Made by a program: the position numbers and the translations under genes. DNA of 64,000 nt, from positions 1-64,000 of the forward strand of contig NZ_JAJVKW010000015.1 in the NCBI RefSeq assembly GCF_024198255.1, written 5' to 3'. Every line of letters begins with the position of its first letter. The first letter of the stretch is position 1. The notes beneath the pieces were generated by a model. The model was not told the origin of the DNA, ran no database searches, and saw only the letters and a list, made by a program, of their open reading frames with translations. Shown one piece after another: positions 19,817 to 42,421 of this stretch. The DNA is from Myxococcus guangdongensis. GTDB taxonomy: Bacteria > Myxococcota > Myxococcia > Myxococcales > Myxococcaceae.

Positions 19817-19887
19817 AACCGGGGGCAGGTGTTGCACCTGCGCCTGCGGAGTCAGATTCCGCCATCCTGCTGTTAGACGACCCCGGT
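19817..19887 (-). tRNA. tRNA-Gln (CTG), atypical T-loop
   Basis: 71 nt with all four arms: acceptor ACCGGGG/CCCCGGT (7 perfect pairs), D arm GTCT...GGAT (two G-U), anticodon arm GCGGA ATCTGAC TCCGC with anticodon CTG, a 4-nt variable loop, and a T stem GCAGG/CCTGC. The T-loop is TGCAACA instead of TTCRANY, so normal D/T-loop packing is doubtful. It may be decaying, or specialised. It lies 21 nt downstream of tRNA-Gly in the same direction. Confidence 0.62.
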
Positions 19888-20063: not shown

Positions 20064-20645
20064 TCACGTGCCCGCGGTGGGGACGACGGCCGACAGGTTC
20101 ACCAGGGCGTCGCGTCGAGTGCCGTGGTCGACGAAGTCCTGGATGGCGCGAGCCAGCGTCGCGGCCAGCAATCCCAACAGCGGCAGGTGCGCGCCGCCCT
20201 CGCAGGTGGCCTGTCCGGCGGTGTCCTCGGCGTCCGGCGTGAAGCGCTCGTCCCAGCGCACCAGACCGAAGGTTCCATCCGCGCTCACCGCGCCGTGAAC
20301 CAGCGGCTTGCCAACCTCGCGAGCGAACCCGGAGAGCAGCAGGCGGCTGTCCTGGTTGTCGAAGCAGTCCACCACCAGGTCCGCGCCGCCGCACAGCGCC
20401 GCCACGTTGTCGCGGGTGACGCGCACGCCGAAGGACTCCGCCTTCACGCCGTGCAGGTTGAGGAGCTGGAGCTTGAGCGCCTCGGCCTTGTTCTTCCCCG
20501 CCGAGGGCTTCACGTAGGCCTGCGAGAGCAGGTTCTTGGACTCCACGCGGTCGAAGTCGATGAACACCAACGTGGCCTCCAGGTTGCGGCACAGCACGGC
20601 CGCCTGCGAGCCGATGGCCCCCACGCCACAGAAGACGATTCGCAT
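20064..20645 (-). CDS. E1/ThiF-like adenylyltransferase
   Basis: 193 residues. A Rossmann-type ATP site opens the protein (MRIVFCGVGAIGSQAAVLCR). It is followed by FIDFDRVESKNLLSQAY (the acidic strand and Asn/Arg-rich loop of E1 enzymes), DLVVDCFDNQDSRLLL and CEGGAHLPLLGLLAATLA, which carries the candidate catalytic or structural Cys. It is short for MoeB/ThiF (about 245) and lacks the CxxC zinc pairs of ThiF, so it resembles the stand-alone E1-like proteins found in bacterial Ub-like and JAMM-linked cassettes. It is co-directional with the 82-residue protein 9 bp upstream and with the tRNA-Gly/Gln array downstream. The modified substrate is unknown. Confidence 0.8.
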   Translation of the reverse strand: MRIVFCGVGAIGSQAAVLCRNLEATLVFIDFDRVESKNLLSQAYVKPSAGKNKAEALKLQLLNLHGVKAESFGVRVTRDNVAALCGGADLVVDCFDNQDSRLLLSGFAREVGKPLVHGAVSADGTFGLVRWDERFTPDAEDTAGQATCEGGAHLPLLGLLAATLARAIQDFVDHGTRRDALVNLSAVVPTAGT

Positions 20646-20654
20646 GGCGTCACC

Positions 20655-20903
20655 TCACCGCGCGCCGAAGGGGACCTTGGGGCGCAGGTAGATGCGCTCG
20701 TCGCCCCGGGCGCCCCGGAAGCGGTCCACCATGAAGTGCTGGAACGCGTCCTCGCGCAGATGCGCCACGTGCAGACCGGGCACGCCGCCCGAGCGCACCA
20801 TCTCCGTGGCGATGCGACGCACGTCGGCGTCGGAGACGGGGCGGTCCAGCTCCACCGGCACGTCCGCGGACATGCCGTCGTAGGTGATGTTCAGCGTGGC
20901 CAT
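20655..20903 (-). CDS. Small partner protein of the E1-like enzyme
   Basis: 82 residues beginning MATLNITYDGMSADVPVELD, a likely beta-hairpin, followed by a helix (DADVRRIATEMV) and DERIYLRPKVPFGAR at the end. Size, strand-helix order and position next to an E1-like gene would suit a beta-grasp (Ub-like) protein, but the C-terminus has no di-glycine, so this is only a possibility. The ATG at 20903 is directly followed by a strong frame, and the gap to the E1-like gene is 9 bp, implying an operon. Confidence 0.55.
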   Translation of the reverse strand: MATLNITYDGMSADVPVELDRPVSDADVRRIATEMVRSGGVPGLHVAHLREDAFQHFMVDRFRGARGDERIYLRPKVPFGAR

Positions 20904-21014
20904 GGGGCTCCTCGCGTGTCCCTCGTGGGACGCGGGAGCGCGGCCGACGGGGTGGCTCGCGGGACGCGAGGGGCCTCCGCTTCCTGACCGTGGGCGCTCG
21001 TGCGCCGGAAAGAC

Positions 21015-30278: not shown

Positions 30279-30650
30279 TCAGGCCCGCGCCATCGGCGTG
30301 TACTGCATGCCGGAGATTTCGCGCAGGGGGCCAGTCCACCAGGGCTCCTCGGAGACCCAGACGTCGCGGCCCTCCACGCGGGCCACCATGCCGCCGGGCG
30401 CCACGACGGAGAAGCGGGGCGCGCGTCCGAGCGCCTCGGTCAACGCGGTCATCGTCGTCTCGTCCTCCTCGGAGAAGCCGAGCGGACCCTCGGGGTGGCT
30501 GTGCGCCACCTCCACCAGCTCCTCACGCCAGTACCAGATGGCCTCCCAGCGCGCGCGGGAGTCGGGCAGCAGGACGGGACTCTCGGAGGCCTCGCACCAC
30601 AGCACCTCCTCGTCCTGTCCGATGAGCAGACACACCTCATGCGTCGACAT
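30279..30650 (-). CDS. JAMM/MPN-domain protein (putative metallopeptidase)
   Basis: 123 residues, a minimal JAB1/MPN domain. The zinc motif is complete: VEVAHSHPEGPLGFSEEDET gives H-x-H-x7-S-x2-D near residues 49-62. The general-base Glu could be the one early in EVCLLIGQDEEV. Bacterial JAMM proteins remove Ub-like tags or cut small peptides; some belong to RNA-repair or E1-linked cassettes. It is the last gene of the minus-strand run Y RNA, Ro60-like, unknown, JAMM, 22 bp after the previous stop, with AGAGGAGG upstream. A linked E1-like gene lies about 10 kb away. Confidence 0.78.
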   Translation of the reverse strand: MSTHEVCLLIGQDEEVLWCEASESPVLLPDSRARWEAIWYWREELVEVAHSHPEGPLGFSEEDETTMTALTEALGRAPRFSVVAPGGMVARVEGRDVWVSEEPWWTGPLREISGMQYTPMARA

Positions 30651-30671
30651 GGCTCCTCCTCTCTTCCCGTG

Positions 30672-31679
30672 TCACGCGTGCCGGGTGATGACCAGCACGT
30701 CGGTATCGATGGCCTCGCGGATGACCGAAGGCAGGCTCTCCAGCGTCACCTCGCTGTCCGCGCCCGCCAGGCACACGCCCGCGTCCATCACCTGGAGCGT
30801 GCGCGCGTCCACGATGGAGACGAACCGCTCCCCCATGAAGCTGAACGTCACCTCCAACTGGCTCCCCGCCATGCGGCGATGATGGAGCAGCCGCGCCCCC
30901 GCGCCCTGCAACGCCACCTCCGCGCGCGAGTGGTCTCCCACCGGCGCACCCCGGCCCCAGGACGCGTCGCCCGACAGCACCCGCCGACGGGCCTCCTGGG
31001 CCAGCTCGGTGGCGCGGACCGTCTGCGCCTCGTCCCGGGCACGCCGCTGCTCGGCCATCCGCCGTGCCTCGAGCACCCGCTGGTGGGTCCGCCGCTCCTC
31101 CGCCAGGGCCCTCAGGCAGGACTCCGCCTCCGGACGGCCCAGCTCGGCCACCTTCAACACCCGCCCTCGCGTCTCCGCGGGGGCGAAGCGGATGTCCAAC
31201 ACCCGCGACGTGGCCTCCAGCAGCGCATAGCCGAACGCCGCGCGCAGCGGAGCGCTCACGCCCTTCACGGATGCCAGCGGCTGGCCCTCCTCCAGGGCCC
31301 GACGCGCGGCGTCCTCCGCCTCGCCCTCGAACTCCACGCCGTCGAACAACAGCGCGCCGTCATGCCAGCGCCGCGCGCTCACGGGCGCGAGCGGTGACGG
31401 CTCGTCCTCCGGCATCAGCTCCAGGGGCCTGGCCACGGCGCCCTCGAGCACCAGACGCGCTCCCCACACATGTCCACGCACCCGCGGCAGCGCCTCCAGG
31501 CCCTCGGGCCCTGCGGGCTCACGGGCGGTGGCCTCTCGCCCCTTCAACTCGAAGCGCCACCACCCCGGGGCCACGGGGGAGGTGACACGGAGGCGTCGCG
31601 TGGCGGTGTCCACGGTGCCGCCGCCCAGGTACGGCAGCACCGCCGACTCCACCTTCCCGAGGAACTTCCGGTAGTCCAC
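30672..31679 (-). CDS. Unknown protein linked to the Ro60-like gene
   Basis: 335 residues from a GTG with AAGGAGG upstream, 32 bp after the Ro60-like stop. The N-terminal half is mixed alpha/beta (VTSPVAPGWWRFELKGREA, GHVWGARLVLEGAVARPLEL). The middle is a charged coiled coil at about 195-235 (LAEERRTHQRVLEARRMAEQ and on), and the C-terminus is beta-rich (LEVTFSFMGERFVSIVDART). No known domain is recognised. Its place in the operon between the Ro60-like and JAMM genes suggests a partner or adaptor, possibly RNA- or tag-binding. Confidence 0.65.
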   Translation of the reverse strand: MDYRKFLGKVESAVLPYLGGGTVDTATRRLRVTSPVAPGWWRFELKGREATAREPAGPEGLEALPRVRGHVWGARLVLEGAVARPLELMPEDEPSPLAPVSARRWHDGALLFDGVEFEGEAEDAARRALEEGQPLASVKGVSAPLRAAFGYALLEATSRVLDIRFAPAETRGRVLKVAELGRPEAESCLRALAEERRTHQRVLEARRMAEQRRARDEAQTVRATELAQEARRRVLSGDASWGRGAPVGDHSRAEVALQGAGARLLHHRRMAGSQLEVTFSFMGERFVSIVDARTLQVMDAGVCLAGADSEVTLESLPSVIREAIDTDVLVITRHA

Positions 31680-31711: not shown

Positions 31712-33475
31712 TCACGCCACCTTCAACAGCGGCGTGCGCATCACCCGCTCGACCCAGCCGGACTGGCTGGCACCGGGCATCGTCGGCGCGTCCAGCAGCG
31801 CCTTGAGCACCCGGGGGACCTGGTAGGGGTCCGCGAACTGGTCCACGTTCACCTCGCTGAAGGGCACCCGCAGCTGGCTCGCGCACGTGCGCACCGTGTT
31901 GCCACGGCCACCCGCCACGCTCACCAACAGCGCCATCGCCGCCACCGGGAAGCCGACGTCACGGAACGCCCGGGCGAACTGGTCGCCCGCCTCGCCCGCC
32001 TCGTCGCCCACCACGATGACCACCAGCTTCGCCCCCTCCGGCACCCTCATCCCGTCCCGGTGCAGCGCGTGCACGCCGGCCGCGTGCGTCGTGCCACCCG
32101 AGGCCTTCAGCCCCGCGAGCATGTGCTGCACCGCCGTGCGGTTGGAGGCCTTGGGACGCAGCACGGTGCCCATCGTGTCGAACGCCGCGATGTGCAGCTT
32201 CTCCATCGGGAAGCCCGCGAGGATGCGCGCGAGCGCCTCCTTCGAGTTCTCGATGGCCCCGTCCATGGAGCCCGACTTGTCGATGAGGAACATCACCCGC
32301 ACGTCGGTCTCCGCCGTCGCCTCCGCCACCGCCTGTCGTGCCGCGTTGTCGCTCGCCTCCTCCAGCTTCTGGCGCAGCACCTCGCTGCGCACGTTCTTCG
32401 CGATGTTGAGCGCCCGCTGGTCCGTCGCCGTCTGCACGGCCTTCTCCCAGCGCGCGCGCACCGTGGGCTCCGCGAGCAGCCCCAGCTCCTCCAACGTGGG
32501 CGTCATCAGCCGCAGGTCGCGGTCCGACAGCGAGGGCAACAGCGCCACCATGATGGCCGGCGTCATCCCCACGTCCTTCGGCAGCCGGCCCACGACCTCC
32601 TTGTAGGAGAGCCGCTCGGAATCAATCCACTCGCAGATCTCCGCCTCGGACAGCCCGTCGAAGCGCTCGCGCTTGACCAACGTCAGCCCGCTCAGGCCCA
32701 CCGTGCGGTGCCCGCCCTCGGCCTGCTTCTGCTTCCAGCCGAGCACCTCGAAGAAGCCCTGCGTGAGCGGCTTGTAGCCCGCCTTGCGCGCCAGCTTCTT
32801 CAACGTCTCCTTGTAGCCGGCCTTCATCAGGCCCTGGAGCATCGACAGGTTGGACTCCCGCGCGGCCAGCCACCTGGACGCCACGCGCTTCCAGCGGCCC
32901 ATGGGCGGCTTGCGCGACGCCGGGTCCCCGAAGCCCGCCGCGCGGTTGAGGCTGGCGATGTCCGGCAGCTCGAGCAGCTCCGCCACCCGCAGCACCGCCT
33001 TGGGCGTGAGCATCCGCGTGGACTTGCGCTCGTAGTGCAGCACCATGGCCTCGCCGATGGAGCGGTAGTCGTCGTCGTGGAACGCCACCTGGCCGTCGTC
33101 ACCGCGCACCGGCTGGCCCGCGTGCTGCTGCACCAGCATGAGCGCGCACGTGGCCACCTTCAGGTCACGCCAGTCCGTCTGCGTCAGCGCGTACGACGCG
33201 AAGTGAGCCATCAGCTCCGAGTTGAGCTGGTGGATGTCGAGCAGCTGTCGGTAGAGCTTCACCGCCGCGGGCACGAAGAGGCCCGGCTTGACGGGCTTGC
33301 CCACCGTGCGCTGCGCCGGCGTGGCGTGCGCCGCGGCCACCCAGGTTCCACCCACGTCCAGGCCAGGACGGTTGTGCCACAGGTGGGCCGAGCCGCTGAG
33401 CACCAGGTCCAGGAGCTTCTCGGCGGGGCCTCGCTGGGACTCGGGCAACAGCTGCGTGTTCGGGTTCGTCGACAT
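31712..33475 (-). CDS. Ro60-like RNA-binding protein (helical repeats plus vWA)
   Basis: 587 residues. Residues 1-385 are alpha-helical repeats with the general pattern of TROVE domains (TDWRDLKVATCALMLVQQHA, LHYERKSTRMLTPKAVLRVA, LMTPTLEELGLL, RALNIAKNVRSEVL). Residues 392-560 are a von Willebrand A domain with a complete MIDAS start: VRVMFLIDKSGSMDG (399-403), GGTTHAAG and VVGDEAGE. Size and order match Ro60/Rsr (about 530). Ro60 is a ring that binds Y RNA and misfolded RNA ends. The Y RNA candidate lies 160 bp upstream on the same strand. The start at 33475 has AAGGGGG upstream. The TROVE assignment is by architecture, since sequence similarity is weak. Confidence 0.75.
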   Translation of the reverse strand: MSTNPNTQLLPESQRGPAEKLLDLVLSGSAHLWHNRPGLDVGGTWVAAAHATPAQRTVGKPVKPGLFVPAAVKLYRQLLDIHQLNSELMAHFASYALTQTDWRDLKVATCALMLVQQHAGQPVRGDDGQVAFHDDDYRSIGEAMVLHYERKSTRMLTPKAVLRVAELLELPDIASLNRAAGFGDPASRKPPMGRWKRVASRWLAARESNLSMLQGLMKAGYKETLKKLARKAGYKPLTQGFFEVLGWKQKQAEGGHRTVGLSGLTLVKRERFDGLSEAEICEWIDSERLSYKEVVGRLPKDVGMTPAIMVALLPSLSDRDLRLMTPTLEELGLLAEPTVRARWEKAVQTATDQRALNIAKNVRSEVLRQKLEEASDNAARQAVAEATAETDVRVMFLIDKSGSMDGAIENSKEALARILAGFPMEKLHIAAFDTMGTVLRPKASNRTAVQHMLAGLKASGGTTHAAGVHALHRDGMRVPEGAKLVVIVVGDEAGEAGDQFARAFRDVGFPVAAMALLVSVAGGRGNTVRTCASQLRVPFSEVNVDQFADPYQVPRVLKALLDAPTMPGASQSGWVERVMRTPLLKVA

Positions 33476-33634: not shown

Positions 33635-33767
33635 GCGCCCGAGTGACGAGGCCGGTGATGCTGGATTGAATGTCCAGTGTTCTACCGTTGAACTACGGAG
33701 CCTGACGGCCCCGGCGGGATTCGAACCCGCACCTCTCATTGCGTGTCTGGCCCTGTCGGCCGGGCGC
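33635..33767 (-). ncRNA. Y RNA (YrlA-like) with permuted tRNA-like domain, copy 1
   Basis: About 133 nt on the minus strand. Outer stem: GCGCCCG pairs with CGGGCGC, then a 3x3 internal loop (GCC/ACT), then GACAGGGCC with GGCCTCGTC (one A-C mismatch). Inside, in order: AGACACGC linker, T arm GCGGG TTCGAAT CCCGC, 3' acceptor strand CGGGGCC, loop GTCA, 5' acceptor strand GGCTCCG (7 pairs), T-A, D arm GTTC AACGGTA GAAC, anticodon-like arm CTGGA CATTCAA TCCAG. The parts of a tRNA are all present but in circularly permuted order, with the acceptor closed, so it cannot be charged. This is the known plan of bacterial Y RNAs. It lies upstream of the Ro60-like gene. Boundaries are set by the outer stem, not by a promoter or terminator. 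Confidence 0.75.
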
Positions 33768-33807: not shown

Positions 33808-34515
33808 TCACGAGTAGACGCACACGTCGCCATGCACCGGGAACTTCGCCACGTCCTTGCCACCCCGGTACGTCTTCCGGGCTGGCACCGAGACGAGTTC
33901 CCAGGTCGGCAGCACCACCGCCGTCAGGGAGCGTCCGTAGACACACCCCGTGTCGATGCCCACCGCGTGCTCGGTGACGAGCGGCTGGTCGAACACGGTG
34001 TGTCCGAAGATGACCCGCTCCGGGCCCTTCCAGTGGTGGGTCCAGAACGTCCACCCCTGCGGTGCCTTGGAGGGCCAGTAGCTCTTCTTGCCGGGCGGCT
34101 GGATGCACTGCGCGTGGAGCAGGTGGTACGGGTCCTGCGCCTCCACGGGCAGGCCGGGCATCATCCCGGCGTGGACGACGACGGCGTTGTGCTCGGGCAG
34201 CCGCAGGTAGTGGGGCAGCCGGGCCATCCACTCGTAGTGCTCGGGCTCGAGCACCTGACGGGTCTCCAGGTGGTCGGGATTCAGCCGCTCGGCGGCGCGG
34301 TGGCGCTGCTGCAGCGTCGTCTCCTCGTGGTTGCCCAGGATGGCCTCGTGCCGCATGGCCAGCTCCACGCACTCCCGGCGCTTGGGCCCCCGGTCCACCA
34401 GGTCCCCCGCGAAGATGACGCGGTCGCTGGAGGTGGCCCCCACCTTGGCGAGCAGCTCCAGGGCCTCGTCGTGGCAGCCATGGAGGTCTCCGATGACGAT
34501 GGTGCGGGGGGACAT
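33808..34515 (-). CDS. ApaH/PrpE-like metallophosphatase
   Basis: 235 residues. Calcineurin-like phosphatase motifs in order: TIVIGDLHGCHDEALELL (GDxHG), VIFAGDLVDRGPKRRE (GDxxDRG), AILGNHEE (GNHE), VVVHAGMMPGLP and RVIFGHTVFDQPL (GHT). This set defines the PPP-type/ApaH/PrpE group, which splits phosphoesters such as Ap4A, capped RNA ends or phosphoproteins. It is co-directional with, and ends 41 bp before, the Y RNA of the Ro60-like locus, so a role on RNA 5' or 3' ends is attractive but unproven. A tail of about 40 residues past the core (ARKTYRGGKDVAKF) is unremarkable. Confidence 0.88.
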   Translation of the reverse strand: MSPRTIVIGDLHGCHDEALELLAKVGATSSDRVIFAGDLVDRGPKRRECVELAMRHEAILGNHEETTLQQRHRAAERLNPDHLETRQVLEPEHYEWMARLPHYLRLPEHNAVVVHAGMMPGLPVEAQDPYHLLHAQCIQPPGKKSYWPSKAPQGWTFWTHHWKGPERVIFGHTVFDQPLVTEHAVGIDTGCVYGRSLTAVVLPTWELVSVPARKTYRGGKDVAKFPVHGDVCVYS

Positions 34516-34834
34516 GACTTGGGGTTCCTTGGAAGCGGGAGGGTGGGCGGGCGCCCGGAAGCAATGCGGCCAGGGACGGGGGCCCCCCATGTTCCTGACC
34601 GGGAAATTCCCGTTCCCCCTCTGGGATGGCCCCGGGGATAATCCTGTCAGGAAGTCGGCGACCCGGGCGTCGGGCTTCGTGGGTGCCACGACTGTCCGGT
34701 CGTCCGGGTGGCCTGGGCACCCCTGCTCCACTCGGAGGCTGCCTGCGGATGCCAACGTGGTACCTTGCCGCGCGACATCCCTGTAATCCCATCTCCCGGG
34801 GCGGGTCTCCGGGCACAGCTCCCAGGTCCTTCCG
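34516..34834. other. Divergent promoter region
   Basis: 319 bp between the phosphatase (minus) and an ECF sigma gene (plus). I see no gene. GATAAT at 34637-34642 could be a -10 hexamer on the plus strand, but no good -35 was found at the right distance. Confidence 0.4.
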
Positions 34835-35506
34835 GTGTTCGAGCAGCTCACGGATGACGAATTGTTCGCGGAGGTGGTCCGCCGCCGCGCCACGGGCGAG
34901 CCCATTGGGGGCCCGCTCGGAGCGTTGGTTCAGCGGTGGAGCCGGCCTGCCCGGTACGTCATCAGCAAGATTCAGGCGAGCTACGGCCGCGGTTCCCCAG
35001 CGGACGGCGACGAGCTCTATCAGGACGCGGTCGGCAAGTTCCTCGACCGCGGGCTGGACCAGTTCCGTGGCATCTCCCAGCAGATGCCGGGCCGGAGTGC
35101 GTCTCCCAAGACGTTCTTCCTGCGCATCGTCAAGCACGTGGCCATCGACTTCTACCGGAGGCACCGCGAGGAGCTCGCGGCGCCTCCGTCGGACCCTGAT
35201 GACGCCATGGAGGAGCCGCCTTCCGAGCGGGCTCGTGCTGTGGAGATGGGCCGGAGGACGGAGGAGCGCGCGGACGCCCAGGAGCTGTACTGGGCCGCGT
35301 TCGCACGGCTCCAGCAGGAGCACCCCAAGGAGGCCTCGGCATGGGAGCTGTATCACCACGAGGACGTGGAGGATCACGAGGAATGCGCGCGTCGGCTGAA
35401 CATCACCGTGGTCAACTCCTACAAGCGCGTCAGTCGCGCGCAGGCCTACTTGAAGCTCTACCTGCTGGATCTCCAGCGCGAGTCGCCACGAGGGGAGGAA
35501 GCGTGA
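34835..35506 (+). CDS. ECF-type RNA polymerase sigma factor
   Basis: 223 residues from a GTG start. Region 2 contains DELYQDAVGKFLDRGLDQFR ... KTFFLRIVKHVAIDFYRRHR, the 'core-binding plus -10' pattern with aromatic and basic residues at the end. Region 4 is present but loose (EDVEDHEECARRLNITVVNS then YKRVSRAQAYLKLYLLDL), an HTH for the -35. An unusually long linker (about 50 residues, acidic) joins them. It is followed 46 bp downstream by a zinc-finger-like protein, typical of a sigma/anti-sigma pair. Confidence 0.8.
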   Translation: MFEQLTDDELFAEVVRRRATGEPIGGPLGALVQRWSRPARYVISKIQASYGRGSPADGDELYQDAVGKFLDRGLDQFRGISQQMPGRSASPKTFFLRIVKHVAIDFYRRHREELAAPPSDPDDAMEEPPSERARAVEMGRRTEERADAQELYWAAFARLQQEHPKEASAWELYHHEDVEDHEECARRLNITVVNSYKRVSRAQAYLKLYLLDLQRESPRGEEA

Positions 35507-35552: not shown

Positions 35553-36740
35553 ATGAAGACCGAAGCCATGTCTCGCTATGCCGCCCGTCGCTCCCAGCTC
35601 ACCGATGCGAGCGTCCCACCCGGAGTCGTCCTGGAAGCCGCCGGAGATTTGTTGAGGCGGGCGACCCGACTGGGGACCGAAGGTGTGGAGCCGGCCCTGC
35701 GAGGCCTCGGTCGACCGGAAGTGGAGACCTGGCTCCAGGCGCAGAAACCGCAGGCGCTCCAGCCCGTGCTGTTGAGGGCCGCGGAAGAGGCGATGGAGGT
35801 GGCGCTGGACGGTGGGGAGGAGGCCGAGGTGTGGCGCGCCTCGGCGCTGGAGGGACTTGCCGCTCGTGACAGGGCCGCCTCGCAGGCATTTGCCCTCGCC
35901 GCCTGGGAAGGCTTGCAGGGCGAATTGCAGGGGGACGCGGCGCGAAATCGAGACCGCTTCCTCGAGTCGCTCGGGAACCTGGACGCGCTGCTTCGCCCGA
36001 GAGCCCGTTGGTTCATTCCCCTCAACCCCGAGCGTCGCCAGGAGCAATTGCTCCTCGAGCCCTCGGAGCAGGACAAGGCCTGGTGGTTCAGTGCCCGGGC
36101 CGGCTGCGATGACCTGGTGGCGACGTGGTCATCCGGCCCCCAGAGTCCCACCCCCCATATCCAAGGTTGCGTCGAGTGCCGCGCGGACATCGCGGACACC
36201 GCGCCGGTGGATTCGCCTCCCCGTCGTCACCTCACGCGGGATGATTTGTGGCGCTTCGACATGGGCCTGATGACGGCCGACGAGCGCGAGCGCGTGGACG
36301 CGCACACCGCGCGCTGCGGCGAGTGCGCCCAGGCGGTGCTGGCCCTGGGCGAGGGTGACGACGCAATTGAAGAGGCCCTGGAGATGGACGAAGGGGACGC
36401 GGGCGTGGCTCCCGCCGCGCGCTCTTCCCGCGCCCCGGTGTCGCAGCGCCCGTCCTCGGCGCGCCACCCGGAGCAGCGCGAGGTGCTGGAGGAGCGGCGC
36501 GACTTCCGCGTGGTGCTGGTGCGCGAGCGTCAGCGCGTGCGGCTCCTGGTGCAGCCCCTGGCGGGCAGGACGGTGACGGCGGCGGTGTTCCTGAGCCCCG
36601 GCCGGCCCTCGCTCAAGCCCACGAACGGACCCGAGGGGATGTCGTTCGATTTGTCCTCGGCCTCCGCCACCGGCGCTCGCTCCGCGCACCTCTCGGTGCA
36701 GGCGGGCAACGAGACGCTGGAGCGGGACTTCGCCTTCTGA
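35553..36740 (+). CDS. Zinc-finger-like partner of the ECF sigma factor
   Basis: 395 residues. The N-terminal 190 residues are helical and Ala-rich. Two segments look like anti-sigma zinc fingers: IQGCVECRADIADT and, at about 228-258, LWRFDMGLMTADERERVDAH then TARCGECAQAVL (H-x3-C-x2-C). The C-terminal 120 residues are beta-rich (FRVVLVRERQRVRLLVQPLAG). No transmembrane helix, so it is probably a cytoplasmic anti-sigma or sensor. GAGGAATG precedes the start. Confidence 0.65.
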   Translation: MKTEAMSRYAARRSQLTDASVPPGVVLEAAGDLLRRATRLGTEGVEPALRGLGRPEVETWLQAQKPQALQPVLLRAAEEAMEVALDGGEEAEVWRASALEGLAARDRAASQAFALAAWEGLQGELQGDAARNRDRFLESLGNLDALLRPRARWFIPLNPERRQEQLLLEPSEQDKAWWFSARAGCDDLVATWSSGPQSPTPHIQGCVECRADIADTAPVDSPPRRHLTRDDLWRFDMGLMTADERERVDAHTARCGECAQAVLALGEGDDAIEEALEMDEGDAGVAPAARSSRAPVSQRPSSARHPEQREVLEERRDFRVVLVRERQRVRLLVQPLAGRTVTAAVFLSPGRPSLKPTNGPEGMSFDLSSASATGARSAHLSVQAGNETLERDFAF

Positions 36741-39900: not shown

Positions 39901-42213
39901 GTGAACGCCCACGAATCCGCCCTCCTCGAAGACCTGAATGACCCCCAGCGCGAGGCCGTGCTGCACCACGGCGGCCCGCTCCTCGTCCTGTCGGGCGCGG
40001 GCAGCGGCAAGACGCGCGTCATCACCCGCCGGGTGGCGTACCTGGTGAAGGTCCACGAGGTGTTCCCCTGGCGCATCCTCGCCGTCACCTTCACCAACAA
40101 GGCGGCCCGCGAGATGCGCGAGCGCCTGGTGCAACTGCTGGGGCGTCAGGCGAACGACCTGGTGGTGAGCACGTTCCACTCCTCGGCCGCCATGATCCTG
40201 CGCCGCGAGGCGGAGCACGTGGGGCTCACCCGCTCGTTCGTCATCTACGACGACGGCGACCAGCTCAACGTCGTCAAGCGCGCCATGCGCGAGGCGGGGC
40301 TGGAGCAGTCCATGCAGCCGCGCGAAATCTTGAGCCGCATCGACCAGGAGAAGAACCAGGCCCGGCTGCCGGAGGACATGGTGGTGGAGCCCGGTGACGA
40401 GCGCGGGCTGCTCGTCCAGCGCATCTACCACGCGTACCAGGAGCGCCTGCGCGCGGCCAACGCGGTGGACTTCGGGGACCTGTTGCTGCTGCTGGTGACG
40501 CTCTTCCGCAAGCGGCCGGAGGTGCTGGAGAACTACCGCCGGCGCTTCCACCACGTGCTGGTGGACGAGTTCCAGGACACCAACCCCGTGCAGTACGCGC
40601 TGCTCAAGCAGCTGGCGCCGCCGCCCTCGGCGAACCTCGTCGTCGTGGGCGACGACGACCAGTCCATCTACCGGTGGCGCGGCGCGGACGTGGACAACAT
40701 CCTCAACTTCCCGCGCGAGTACCCCGGCGCCAAGGTGGTGAAGCTCGAGCAGAACTACCGCTCGGACCGAAACATCCTGGACGCGGCCTACGAGGTCATC
40801 CGGAAGAACACGCGCCGGATGGAGAAGAAGCTGTGGTCGGACAGGCCCGCGGGCCAGACGCTCCAGCTGATGCTCAACCGCGACGAGCGGATGGAGGCAC
40901 AGGAGATTTCACGGCAGATCCTGGCGCTCCAGCGGGAGGGCTTCATCAAGTTCTCCAGCATGGCGGTGTTCTACCGCGTCAACGCGCAGAGCCGCGTGCT
41001 GGAGGAGGCGCTGCGGCTGGCGCGCGTGCCGTACACGCTGGTGAGCGGGCGCAGCTTCTATGACCGGGCCGAGGTGCGGGACGCCTCCGCGTACCTGCGG
41101 CTGATGGTGAACCCGCGCTCGGACGCGGACCTGCTGCGCATCATCAACACGCCGGCGCGCGGCATCGGCGACACCACGGTGGAGCGCGTGGTGGACCACG
41201 CCAACACCCGCAACCAGAGCCTCTACGAGGTGCTCGCCGAGCCCGGGCTCATCCCCGCGCTGAACACCACCGCGGTGAAGCGGCTGCGCACGTTCCACGG
41301 GTTGCTGGAGTCCCTGCATCGCTATGCGCAGGGGACGACGGACGCGGCGAGCGCGGTGGACGAGATGCTGCGCGAGACGAAGCTCGTGGAGACGCTGGTC
41401 GCCGAGGGCAGCGACGAGGCGACGACGCGGGCGGAGAACCTCCGCGAGTTCCTGGGCGCGGCGCAGGAGTTCGACCTGAACCGCGCGGCGGCGGCGGTGG
41501 CCGCGGCGTCCGCCCCTCAGGTCGAGGTGCCTCCGGAGGTGGACGCGGCGCCCCTGTCCGCGGACACGCCCCCGCTGCAGGCGTTCCTCGAGCAGATTTC
41601 GCTGGTGGGCGACGCGGACGCGGAGGTGGGCGAGGGTCGGGTGGCGCTGATGACGCTGCACGCGGCGAAGGGCCTGGAGTTCGACGCGGTGTTCCTCACG
41701 GGCCTGGAGGACGGCGTCTTCCCGCACTCGCGCGCGCTCAAGGGCGAGGACCCGGACAACGGCGAGGAGATGGCCGAGGAGCGGCGGCTCTGCTACGTGG
41801 GCTTCACGCGCGCGCGCAAGCGGCTCTTCGTGAGCCTGGCGCAGTGCCGCTCGCTGTTCGGTGAGCTGCGCTACAACCCGCCCAGCCGCTTCCTGCGCGA
41901 CGTGCCTCCCAAGCTGTTCGGCATCAGCGAGCAGGACATCCCGGAGCCGCCCCGGCCCGCCCCCATGGCGGCGCCGCGCAAGCGGACCTGGGACGAGGAC
42001 GACGGTCCGCGCATCGACCGCTCCTACTCACAGGCGTCGGACATGGACGGGGTGAGCGGCGACGTGCGTGGCATGCGCGTGCGGCACGAGCAGTTCGGCG
42101 TGGGCCGCATCGTCGCCGCGGACGGCACGGGGCCCAACGCGAAGGTGACGGTGGAGTTCGGCGGCGCCGTGGGACTCAAGCGCGTCATTGCCCGCTTCCT
42201 GATGCCGGGGTAG
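39901..42213 (+). CDS. pcrA: UvrD/PcrA-type superfamily I DNA helicase
   Basis: 770 residues from a GTG. All SF1A motifs are present: Q motif (LNDPQREAV), Walker A (SGAGSGKTRVITRRVAYL), Ia (ILAVTFTNKAAREM), II (VLVDEFQDTN), III (VGDDDQSIYRWRGAD), IV (EQNYRS), V (LMTLHAAKGLEFDAVF) and VI (ERRLCYVGFTRARKRLFVS). The C-terminal linker and Tudor-like tail (VRHEQFGVGRIVAADG) match PcrA/UvrD. It moves 3'-5' on DNA in repair and in removal of replication blocks. The Y RNA copy 2 starts 14 bp after its stop, on the opposite strand. Confidence 0.95.
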   Translation: MNAHESALLEDLNDPQREAVLHHGGPLLVLSGAGSGKTRVITRRVAYLVKVHEVFPWRILAVTFTNKAAREMRERLVQLLGRQANDLVVSTFHSSAAMILRREAEHVGLTRSFVIYDDGDQLNVVKRAMREAGLEQSMQPREILSRIDQEKNQARLPEDMVVEPGDERGLLVQRIYHAYQERLRAANAVDFGDLLLLLVTLFRKRPEVLENYRRRFHHVLVDEFQDTNPVQYALLKQLAPPPSANLVVVGDDDQSIYRWRGADVDNILNFPREYPGAKVVKLEQNYRSDRNILDAAYEVIRKNTRRMEKKLWSDRPAGQTLQLMLNRDERMEAQEISRQILALQREGFIKFSSMAVFYRVNAQSRVLEEALRLARVPYTLVSGRSFYDRAEVRDASAYLRLMVNPRSDADLLRIINTPARGIGDTTVERVVDHANTRNQSLYEVLAEPGLIPALNTTAVKRLRTFHGLLESLHRYAQGTTDAASAVDEMLRETKLVETLVAEGSDEATTRAENLREFLGAAQEFDLNRAAAAVAAASAPQVEVPPEVDAAPLSADTPPLQAFLEQISLVGDADAEVGEGRVALMTLHAAKGLEFDAVFLTGLEDGVFPHSRALKGEDPDNGEEMAEERRLCYVGFTRARKRLFVSLAQCRSLFGELRYNPPSRFLRDVPPKLFGISEQDIPEPPRPAPMAAPRKRTWDEDDGPRIDRSYSQASDMDGVSGDVRGMRVRHEQFGVGRIVAADGTGPNAKVTVEFGGAVGLKRVIARFLMPG

Positions 42214-42226
42214 TGGGTGAGGCAGT

Positions 42227-42371
42227 CCGCGCCCGAGTGAAGAAGCCTTCGGTTTGACTGTCAGAGTGTGAGTCTGGTGCCTTCGACCACTTGGCTACCC
42301 CTCCTATGCGGTGGGGGCTGGATTCGAACCAGCGAGTCCTGAGCGTGTCGGGCCTCTTCTGCCGGGCGCGG
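42227..42371 (-). ncRNA. Y RNA (YrlA-like) with permuted tRNA-like domain, copy 2
   Basis: About 145 nt on the minus strand. Outer stem CCGCGCCCG/CGGGCGCGG (9 perfect pairs), a 3x3 internal loop (GCA/ACT), then GAAGAGGCC/GGCTTCTTC (9 pairs, one G-U). Inside: CGACACGC linker, T arm GCTGG TTCGAAT CCAGC, acceptor CCCCACC closed by GCATA to GGAGGGG (6 of 7 pairs), D arm GCC AAGTGGTCGAA GGC, anticodon-like arm CAGA CTCACAC TCTG. Architecture, internal loop and the GACACGC linker are shared with copy 1, while most stem bases differ by compensatory changes, which argues for a conserved fold. It lies between the helicase and a propeller lipoprotein with no Ro60 gene next to it. Confidence 0.72.
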
Positions 42372-42421
42372 ATGCGTGAAGGACGCGCGGGGATGAAGGC
42401 GCCTGACGCGCCCGGTGTGAC

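Follow-up and report, generated by a model that had tools for sequence, protein, structure and literature searches.

The Y-type RNA candidate at 33767-33635 is a real feature of the sequence, beyond chance. It is a 133-nt minus-strand element in which a Ro-type terminal stem surrounds a permuted tRNA module, and it lies in the window, the whole 64,000-nucleotide stretch of Myxococcus guangdongensis DNA that was analyzed. The gene for a Ro60-like protein (31712-33475, minus strand) is on the same strand, with the RNA 3' end 159 nt upstream of the ATG at 33475. Judged from sequence comparison, 33635-33767 is read far better as a Ro-type Y RNA than as anything else. We assign a probability of about 0.9 to the RNA being the Y-type partner of a strongly diverged Ro60, which would make the pair a Ro ribonucleoprotein (RNP) of Myxococcota. 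A preliminary description of this DNA had proposed a Y RNA of the neighboring Ro60-like protein, and that proposal is supported because the outer stem covaries, the RNA occurs in 74 of the 75 protein-bearing genomes, the protein model has a Ro60 fold and the Rfam YrlA model gives a sub-threshold match. The coordinates in that description were exact, although it gave no strand, and its placement of the gene about 160 bp downstream agrees with the measured distance.

The RNA and its terminal stem

The terminal stem consists of 7 base pairs, a 3x3 internal loop (GCC/ACU) and 9 further positions, all on the minus strand. Helix 1 pairs the 5' strand GCGCCCG (33761-33767) with the 3' strand CGGGCGC (33635-33641, read 33641-33635 as the partner). 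The internal loop has GCC on its 5' side (33758-33760) and ACU on its 3' side (33642-33644). Helix 2 joins GACAGGGCC (33749-33757) to its 3' strand at 33645-33653 (partner 33653-33645) with one A.C, and the constant motif ACA[AC]GC is at 33741-33746. The enclosed module, also on the minus strand, contains a T arm GCGGG/TTCGAAT/CCCGC (33714-33730), a closed acceptor-like stem of 7 bp over GTCA (33696-33713), the dinucleotide TA, a D arm GTTC/AACGGTA/GAAC with GG in the loop (33679-33693) and a closed anticodon-like arm of 5 bp with the 7-nt loop CATTCAA and A at position 33 (33661-33677). This is the order of a tRNA opened at the variable loop. The four arms had been described in this same order from the letters alone, and all were found. 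The accompanying claim that the outer ends pair over 16 positions around a 3x3 loop holds with 15 standard pairs; the sixteenth is the A.C pair, which is G-C in the other 26 sequences of the 27-sequence alignment. The RNA had a folding z score of -3.35, and 1 of 200 shuffles was equally stable. When the window copy is folded by itself, the minimum-energy structure lacks part of the outer stem, which is settled by the alignments.

Covariance scoring of alignments of 27 and 42 relatives supports the outer stem. The sequence-only alignment of the window type (27 sequences) had 99.1% of 999 cells paired; shuffling the columns gave 92.6%, and sliding the partner by 1-3 columns left no more than 50%. 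Fourteen of its 37 pairs changed on both sides (56 such cells), and 0 of 500 shuffles was as high on any measure. The distal-type alignment (42 sequences) had 92.2% of 1623 cells paired with 17 of 39 pairs and 116 cells changed on both sides, and 1 and 2 of 500 shuffles reached two of the five measures. Both-side changes were also detected in 6 of the 7 pairs of the acceptor-like stem and 3 of the 4 pairs of the D arm in the 27-sequence alignment.

A set of 168 distinct RNA copies was assembled, leaving out one further copy (L032) that looks like a short copy. Stem positions were counted in 162 of them after dropping six with the stem out of register. Helix 1 is near-invariant in the 27-sequence set and variable across the 162 in-register copies, where pair 1 is G-C in 138, A-U in 8, C-G in 6, G-U in 6 and U-A in 2, and pair 4 is C-G in 126, U-A in 21, U-G in 13 and A-U in 2. 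Pair 7 is the weakest (126/162). The constancy of the loop is to be read with the selection of copies in mind, as 124 of the 168 were picked by text patterns containing ACTCGG. The GCC side of the loop was present in 111 of 162 copies in register and, among the 38 of these that only the covariance model had picked up, in 22. The ACU side was present in 31 of those 38, the text patterns themselves having contained ACU. The ACA[AC]GC motif was found in 159 of 162 copies and in 36 of the 38. T-rich tracts lie 3' of the stem, with T at 50-69% at positions 5-9 (124 copies). The alignments show a predicted RNA that is modular: a constant terminal stem with the GCC/ACU loop and ACA[AC]GC, and a variable part that is usually a tRNA body.

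The Ro60-like protein and the distribution of protein and RNA

The Ro60-like protein has 587 residues and a predicted TROVE-like helical-repeat domain followed by a VWA domain. Pfam detected only the VWA domain in the C-terminal third (PF13519, 2e-8). Residues D399, S401 and S403, which we take to be the DxSxS motif of a VWA domain, are invariant in 28 sequences. Sequence searches of Pfam, NCBIfam, PADLOC and the PDB matched the VWA part alone and nothing in the N-terminal domain. The TROVE model PF05731 had no match to the protein or in the window's own genome; among 195 genomes of the phylum it has matches in 5, of which two are clear. An hhalign comparison of the protein family with one TROVE protein returned nothing (probability 0.1%).

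Structural models were used to compare the protein with known folds. The full-length predicted model (pLDDT 72.7, pTM 0.47) gave Ro60/TROVE structures at ranks 1-6 in Foldseek with E values of 5.2e-8 to 4.0e-7, and the top rows of VIA-align were VWA domains. A model of the N-terminal domain built from 51 sequences had a pLDDT of 85.3. Foldseek with this domain alone placed Ro60 first (E 0.023), and VIA-align placed ten Ro60/TROVE entries, D. radiodurans Rsr among them, at ranks 1-10. Their Z scores are 9.2-10.4 for alignments of 251-306 residues, with the following row at 6.1, and lie in a range under about 13 where VIA-align warns that a match can reflect a common arrangement in helical repeats. 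The predicted model has the HEAT-type repeat fold of TROVE. Like Ro60/Rsr (2I91, 1YVR, 2NVO, 9L5Y), which are the best matches to the model, the protein has a helical-repeat domain and then VWA. Unlike them, it has no PF05731 match and no sequence-profile link, and its identity to the matched Ro60 structures is about 10-16%. We call the protein a diverged Ro60 because of its modeled fold and its helical-repeat/VWA architecture.

The protein and the RNA were searched for in 145 genomes of the order. The Ro60-like protein was matched in 78 at E <= 0.001, 3 of these matches covering the VWA part only, and the family is present in 75; two family members are in pieces at contig ends. In a whole-genome search with a covariance model of the window type, 74 of the 145 genomes gave an RNA match at E <= 1e-6, every one of them with the Ro60-like protein. 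The only genome with the protein and without the RNA is G134, which is 85% complete, and no genome has the RNA at this limit without the protein. The 1e-6 line was drawn after the table was seen; a limit of 0.01 gives 91 genomes, and the extra 17 matches (E 3.5e-4 to 0.009), all in genomes without the protein, were counted as noise. The genomes are related, and the co-occurrence does not represent 145 independent events. In four genomes (G077-G080) both RNA and protein are absent, and the other three of their genus carry both.

The position of the RNA was examined in 77 loci taken with up to 1.5 kb upstream of the Ro60-like gene (one, L076, without upstream sequence). The constant RNA 3' end CACTCGGGCG, with one mismatch allowed, was found in at least one copy in 56 of the 77 loci and was not found within this distance in 21. 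The genomes of these 21 loci, except G134, have RNA matches in the whole-genome search, not all of which were placed. One-mismatch matches of the tail pattern in the leaders of L004, L020 and L021 are spurious and were unused. The genus of the window has two copies in 25 of 27 loci, about 0.3 kb and 1.1 kb upstream of the gene, with a phosphoesterase gene between them where checked. The distal copy is missing in the window and in its closest relative (L002). By eye, 34516-34572 appears as promoter-side sequence joined to the gene leader, and 34516-34599 may be the scar of a deleted distal Y RNA, as in relatives the promoter motif and the phosphoesterase gene are separated by a copy.

Predicted copies of the RNA occur both in arrays and dispersed. 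The genome of the window has four, two of them at 33767-33635 and 42369-42229 of the window, a third on contig 14 and a fourth on contig 10. The second window copy (42229-42369, minus strand) has the same topology and scores 88.9 bits with the window-type covariance model. It is directly behind a helicase-like gene (39901-42213, by eye), and the Rfam tRNA model passes its cut-off at 42238-42304 (29.9 bits), though the module is permuted, which would mislabel part of the RNA as a tRNA. Of 54 further, mostly distant loci, 25 had matches to the window-type model at E <= 1 (60 in total, every one on the strand of the gene) and 29 had none. L154 has seven RNA matches by the covariance model and L155 has seven by a stem scan. 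The stem scan of 45 loci gave 41 matches upstream of the gene, 1 in the gene plus downstream sequence, 0 on the opposite strand and 0 in shuffled sequence.

Three viral contigs (L183, L210 and L211) encode relatives of the Ro-like protein, L183 with 36% identity to the window family and the others with 56-57% identity to L183. Ordinary tRNA genes lie upstream of the Ro-like gene in these phage loci, in which the Ro stem was not found; the RNA model gave weak matches only (best E 0.0037, in L211), mostly on the ordinary tRNA genes. A further record, L178 (BNCN01000002.1), is titled Comamonas sp. KCTC 72670, contains a Myxococcus-type locus with 87% identity and is probably mislabeled. A genome of the laboratory species Myxococcus xanthus (L113) also encodes the Ro-like protein, with 87% identity.

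The tRNA module

A parser was used to classify the inner modules of the 168 copies. The window topology with a closed anticodon arm was assigned to 68 copies, and in 11 the anticodon stem is open and runs on into the Ro stem, open and closed arms being ambiguous in a few cases (e.g. L155_-410). Eight copies were permuted with no anticodon arm recognized, 4 were unpermuted and 22 were without a T arm. The 55 copies with a T arm only are mostly of the distal type, which has a D-like hairpin shorter than the parser recognizes. Rules requiring a T arm, acceptor and D arm in order were satisfied by 92 of the 168 copies (87 permuted, 5 unpermuted; second run) and, in either order, by 0 of 820 dinucleotide-shuffled inner modules (five shuffles of each of 164 copies, with 4 copies excluded for a short inner part). 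ARAGORN called all 68 window-type modules tRNAs once de-permuted, compared to 0/68 unrotated and 0/340 shuffled; these copies were preselected for their arms, so the result shows the order of the arms and says nothing independent about how often such modules would be discovered. The constancy of U8, GG, TTC and C61 in 91 parsed copies was rejected as evidence because the parser demands these residues.

Unpermuted copies inside the Ro stem were scored with the Rfam tRNA model, and all four pass its cut-off of 29 bits (L154, 66.5; L155, 61.2; L164, 52.8; L150, 47.8 bits). The YrlA model had no match at E <= 0.1 in these four loci. The L154 and L155 arrays have permuted and unpermuted modules side by side with differing anticodon-like loops. 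In three Archangium loci (L033, L037, L055) and two of Virgisporangium (L174, L180), the stem carries short hairpins and no tRNA module. One Ro-type stem carries a tRNA opened at three points, the unpermuted form included, or no tRNA, which is new.

The accessible parts of two published accounts describe YrlA as a basal Ro-binding stem with a tRNA-like domain modified by DusA and TruB, and state that in D. radiodurans PNPase is steered by Rsr together with the Y RNA (PMC8394870, PMC7790460). The superposition of YrlA on tRNA as a circular permutation is already published, as the available portion of PMC11472068 states, so a permuted order is in itself no novelty. To the extent that these excerpts (PMC8394870, PMC7790460, PMC11472068) describe YrlA (RF02553; Salmonella structure 6CU1), the Myxococcota RNA resembles it in having a putative Ro-binding terminal stem, a gene beside the Ro60 gene and a tRNA-like module whose D, T and acceptor arms come in an order permuted relative to tRNA. 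It differs in the closed anticodon arm added in 68 of the 168 copies, in the relatives that carry an unpermuted tRNA or none, and in the arrays and dispersed copies. The likeness to YrlA that had been noted at the outset stood as a match of the Rfam model (RF02553) to 33753-33646 at E 5.4e-7 (381 bases searched), but the score of 38.0 bits is under the gathering cut-off of 69. In one scan of 14 loci this model matches at 12 places in 11 of them. Over all loci scanned its scores are 33-49 bits (best 49.1), and no copy scanned reaches 69 bits. The Rfam tRNA model (RF00005) scores 23.5 bits on the strand of the window RNA as it stands, under its cut-off of 29. Titles and abstract openings made up most of the literature covered, with few subscription papers, and held no account of a Myxococcota Y RNA family.

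The preliminary description had also considered a permuted tRNA gene, the transcript of which would be cut and re-joined to give a working tRNA-Glu(UUC). The four tRNA arms are all present, and the anticodon-like TTC with U33 replaced by A was confirmed: position 33 is A, and the de-permuted ARAGORN call is tRNA-Glu(ttc). A permuted tRNA gene would have U33 and a usable acceptor end after re-joining, but the window copy has A33 and an acceptor closed by only the 4 nt GTCA, with no free acceptor end. The triplet is unconserved in close relatives (ttc, ctc, gtc, gtt), the Ro stem is conserved, and some copies are without a tRNA module. The genome also has an ordinary tRNA-Glu(ttc), found by ARAGORN on 20 tRNA regions of the genome (a tRNA-Glu text pattern was uninformative). 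With this evidence against it, a functional tRNA gene is very improbable.

The same RNP could instead use its tRNA bodies as decoys, a set of uncharged mimics differing in their anticodon loops that soaks up anticodon nucleases or other tRNA-attacking toxins under stress or phage attack. The anticodon-like 7-nt loops keep tRNA features that the parser did not demand (C32 in 47, U33 in 43 and A37 in 47 of 65), with 32 different triplets among them, and several different loops occur in one locus in the L154 and L155 arrays. The idea has been raised for YrlA in the available part of PMC7790460. The parser often finds no closed anticodon arm (11 open, 8 unrecognized and 22 without a T arm, of 168) and the window copy has A at position 33, which argue against it. 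We consider a decoy possible but rather unlikely.

Promoter-like motif, neighboring genes and proposed function

A divergent ECF-type sigma factor gene (34835-35506, plus strand) is followed by a gene for a zf-HC2 protein, a possible anti-sigma factor (35553-36740, plus strand). The motif GTCAGGAA-N-CGTC, which resembles an ECF promoter, occurs before the phosphoesterase-Y RNA-Ro genes (34575-34599, minus strand), before the sigma gene (34646-34671, plus strand) and before a small protein-E1 gene pair (20963-20988, minus strand), and a relaxed form precedes the second Y RNA (42382-42407, minus strand). A slightly relaxed motif was found upstream of the Ro-like gene in 57 of 77 loci, compared to 1/77 in shuffled sequence and 1/77 in the gene plus downstream sequence. 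The relaxed motif is on the other strand too in 39 of the 77 loci (the site in the window being the one that precedes the divergent sigma gene) and is present at 10 of 24 dispersed RNA copies. The distance from motif to RNA is exactly 20 nt in 41 of 49 measured. Across the organism's own genome, the exact motif is no commoner than a backward control (9 matches versus 11). Three of the nine matches are within the window, where one precedes the sigma gene, one the Ro operon and one the E1 pair; the binomial value for this clustering is about 1.5e-5 and is indicative only, as the motif was read from these loci.

In the window the motif is about 0.8 kb upstream of the Y RNA and not directly before it. 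The RNA is located between the phosphoesterase and Ro genes on one strand, an arrangement consistent with a cis-acting leader of the Ro mRNA, a tRNA-like feedback element rather than a free RNA. Against a leader are the copies found upstream of the phosphoesterase gene, those in arrays and those at other loci, the T-rich tracts after the stem, the upstream motif in 57 of 77 loci and the RNA starts exactly 20 nt after the motif in 41 of 49. A leader is accordingly improbable, and the reading as a free Y RNA is preferred.

The phosphoesterase gene (33808-34515, minus strand) encodes a calcineurin-type protein and is flanked by the two positions at which the genus has Y RNAs. Its nearest models are diadenosine tetraphosphatases (96 bits, below cut-off), and it scores 77 bits with a bacterial Pnkp model; the gene is present in part of the family only. 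It is possible that the protein is an RNA-end enzyme.

Downstream of the Ro-like gene is the conserved next gene, p335 (30672-31679, minus strand), for which NCBIfam and the PDB gave nothing and Pfam gave no consistent family, only weak matches for 2 of 27 members (best E 0.0011). It is followed by a JAMM peptidase-like gene (30279-30650, minus strand; Prok-JAB 26.2 bits, cut-off 25). The Ro-like gene, p335 and JAMM are all present in 59 of 75 loci, and several others end too early; the string reaches Virgisporangium and a MAG labeled Planctomycetota. An ~80-residue protein and a ThiF-type E1 are also present in 20 of the 75 loci, and 2 more have the ~80-residue protein alone. The window encodes homologues of both, the small protein of 82 residues at 20655-20903 and an E1-like ThiF-family protein at 20064-20645 (both minus strand). 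Homologues of the E1 follow Ro-p335-JAMM in relatives, and the one in L141 matches Pfam ThiF. The string is one unit in relatives and is split in the window, with E1 and the small protein at 20064-20903 and JAMM and p335 at 30279-31679. A search of 31 genomes found the E1 at E <= 1.3e-79 in 20 of 20 with the Ro-like gene and only weak ThiF matches in 11 of 11 without it. The small protein may be ubiquitin-like, as its position and size suggest. A tRNA-like sequence at 19817-19887 (minus strand; Rfam 46.3 bits), not called by ARAGORN and without a normal T loop, adjoins tRNA-Gly(CCC) and the E1 gene.

The string in relatives resembles the bacterial ubiquitin-like cassettes in the accessible part of PMC1779556 in having E1/ThiF, JAMM and a small protein together; unlike those cassettes, it includes the Ro-like RNP and p335. 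The pairing of a Ro-like RNP with a ubiquitin-like cassette was not found in the literature covered, again mostly titles and abstract openings. The rsr-yrlBA-rtcBA operon has RtcR/RtcBA, whereas the Myxococcota locus has ECF sigma, JAMM and E1 genes nearby. On present comparisons the family is outside YrlA by the Rfam cut-off, its protein is outside Pfam TROVE, its tRNA is found in several connectivities and its link to JAMM/E1 is unexpected.

A mechanism can be proposed for the Ro RNP. The Ro-like ring protein would bind the constant stem in the way that Y RNAs are bound by Ro60. The tRNA body would be a display module recognized at its D-loop/T-loop elbow by a tRNA-binding partner, for which PNPase, TruB and DusA are precedents from YrlA. 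Lacking a free acceptor end, the body would not be chargeable, and it would be irrelevant where the tRNA ring is opened, since only the folded body counts. Under stress the ECF sigma factor would induce the RNP, a component of which may be modified by the linked JAMM, small protein and E1. Together these steps describe a stress-induced Ro RNP of Myxococcota in which one stem displays tRNA bodies opened at three points (acceptor, variable loop, anticodon loop) with differing anticodon loops, controlled by a ubiquitin-like cassette (JAMM, small protein, E1 and p335) under one ECF sigma. We offer this complete scheme tentatively, at somewhat less than even odds.

The Ro RNP assignment would extend Ro60/Y RNA biology to social, genetically tractable bacteria, in a phylum where Pfam TROVE was seen in 5 of the 195 genomes searched. 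The family is also a natural experiment, with one RNA carrying the tRNA fold in three connectivities, which suggests that the folded tRNA body, rather than its ends or order, is what selection keeps. Should the RNP be a target of the linked JAMM and E1 genes, it would be a bacterial RNP under protein-conjugation control.
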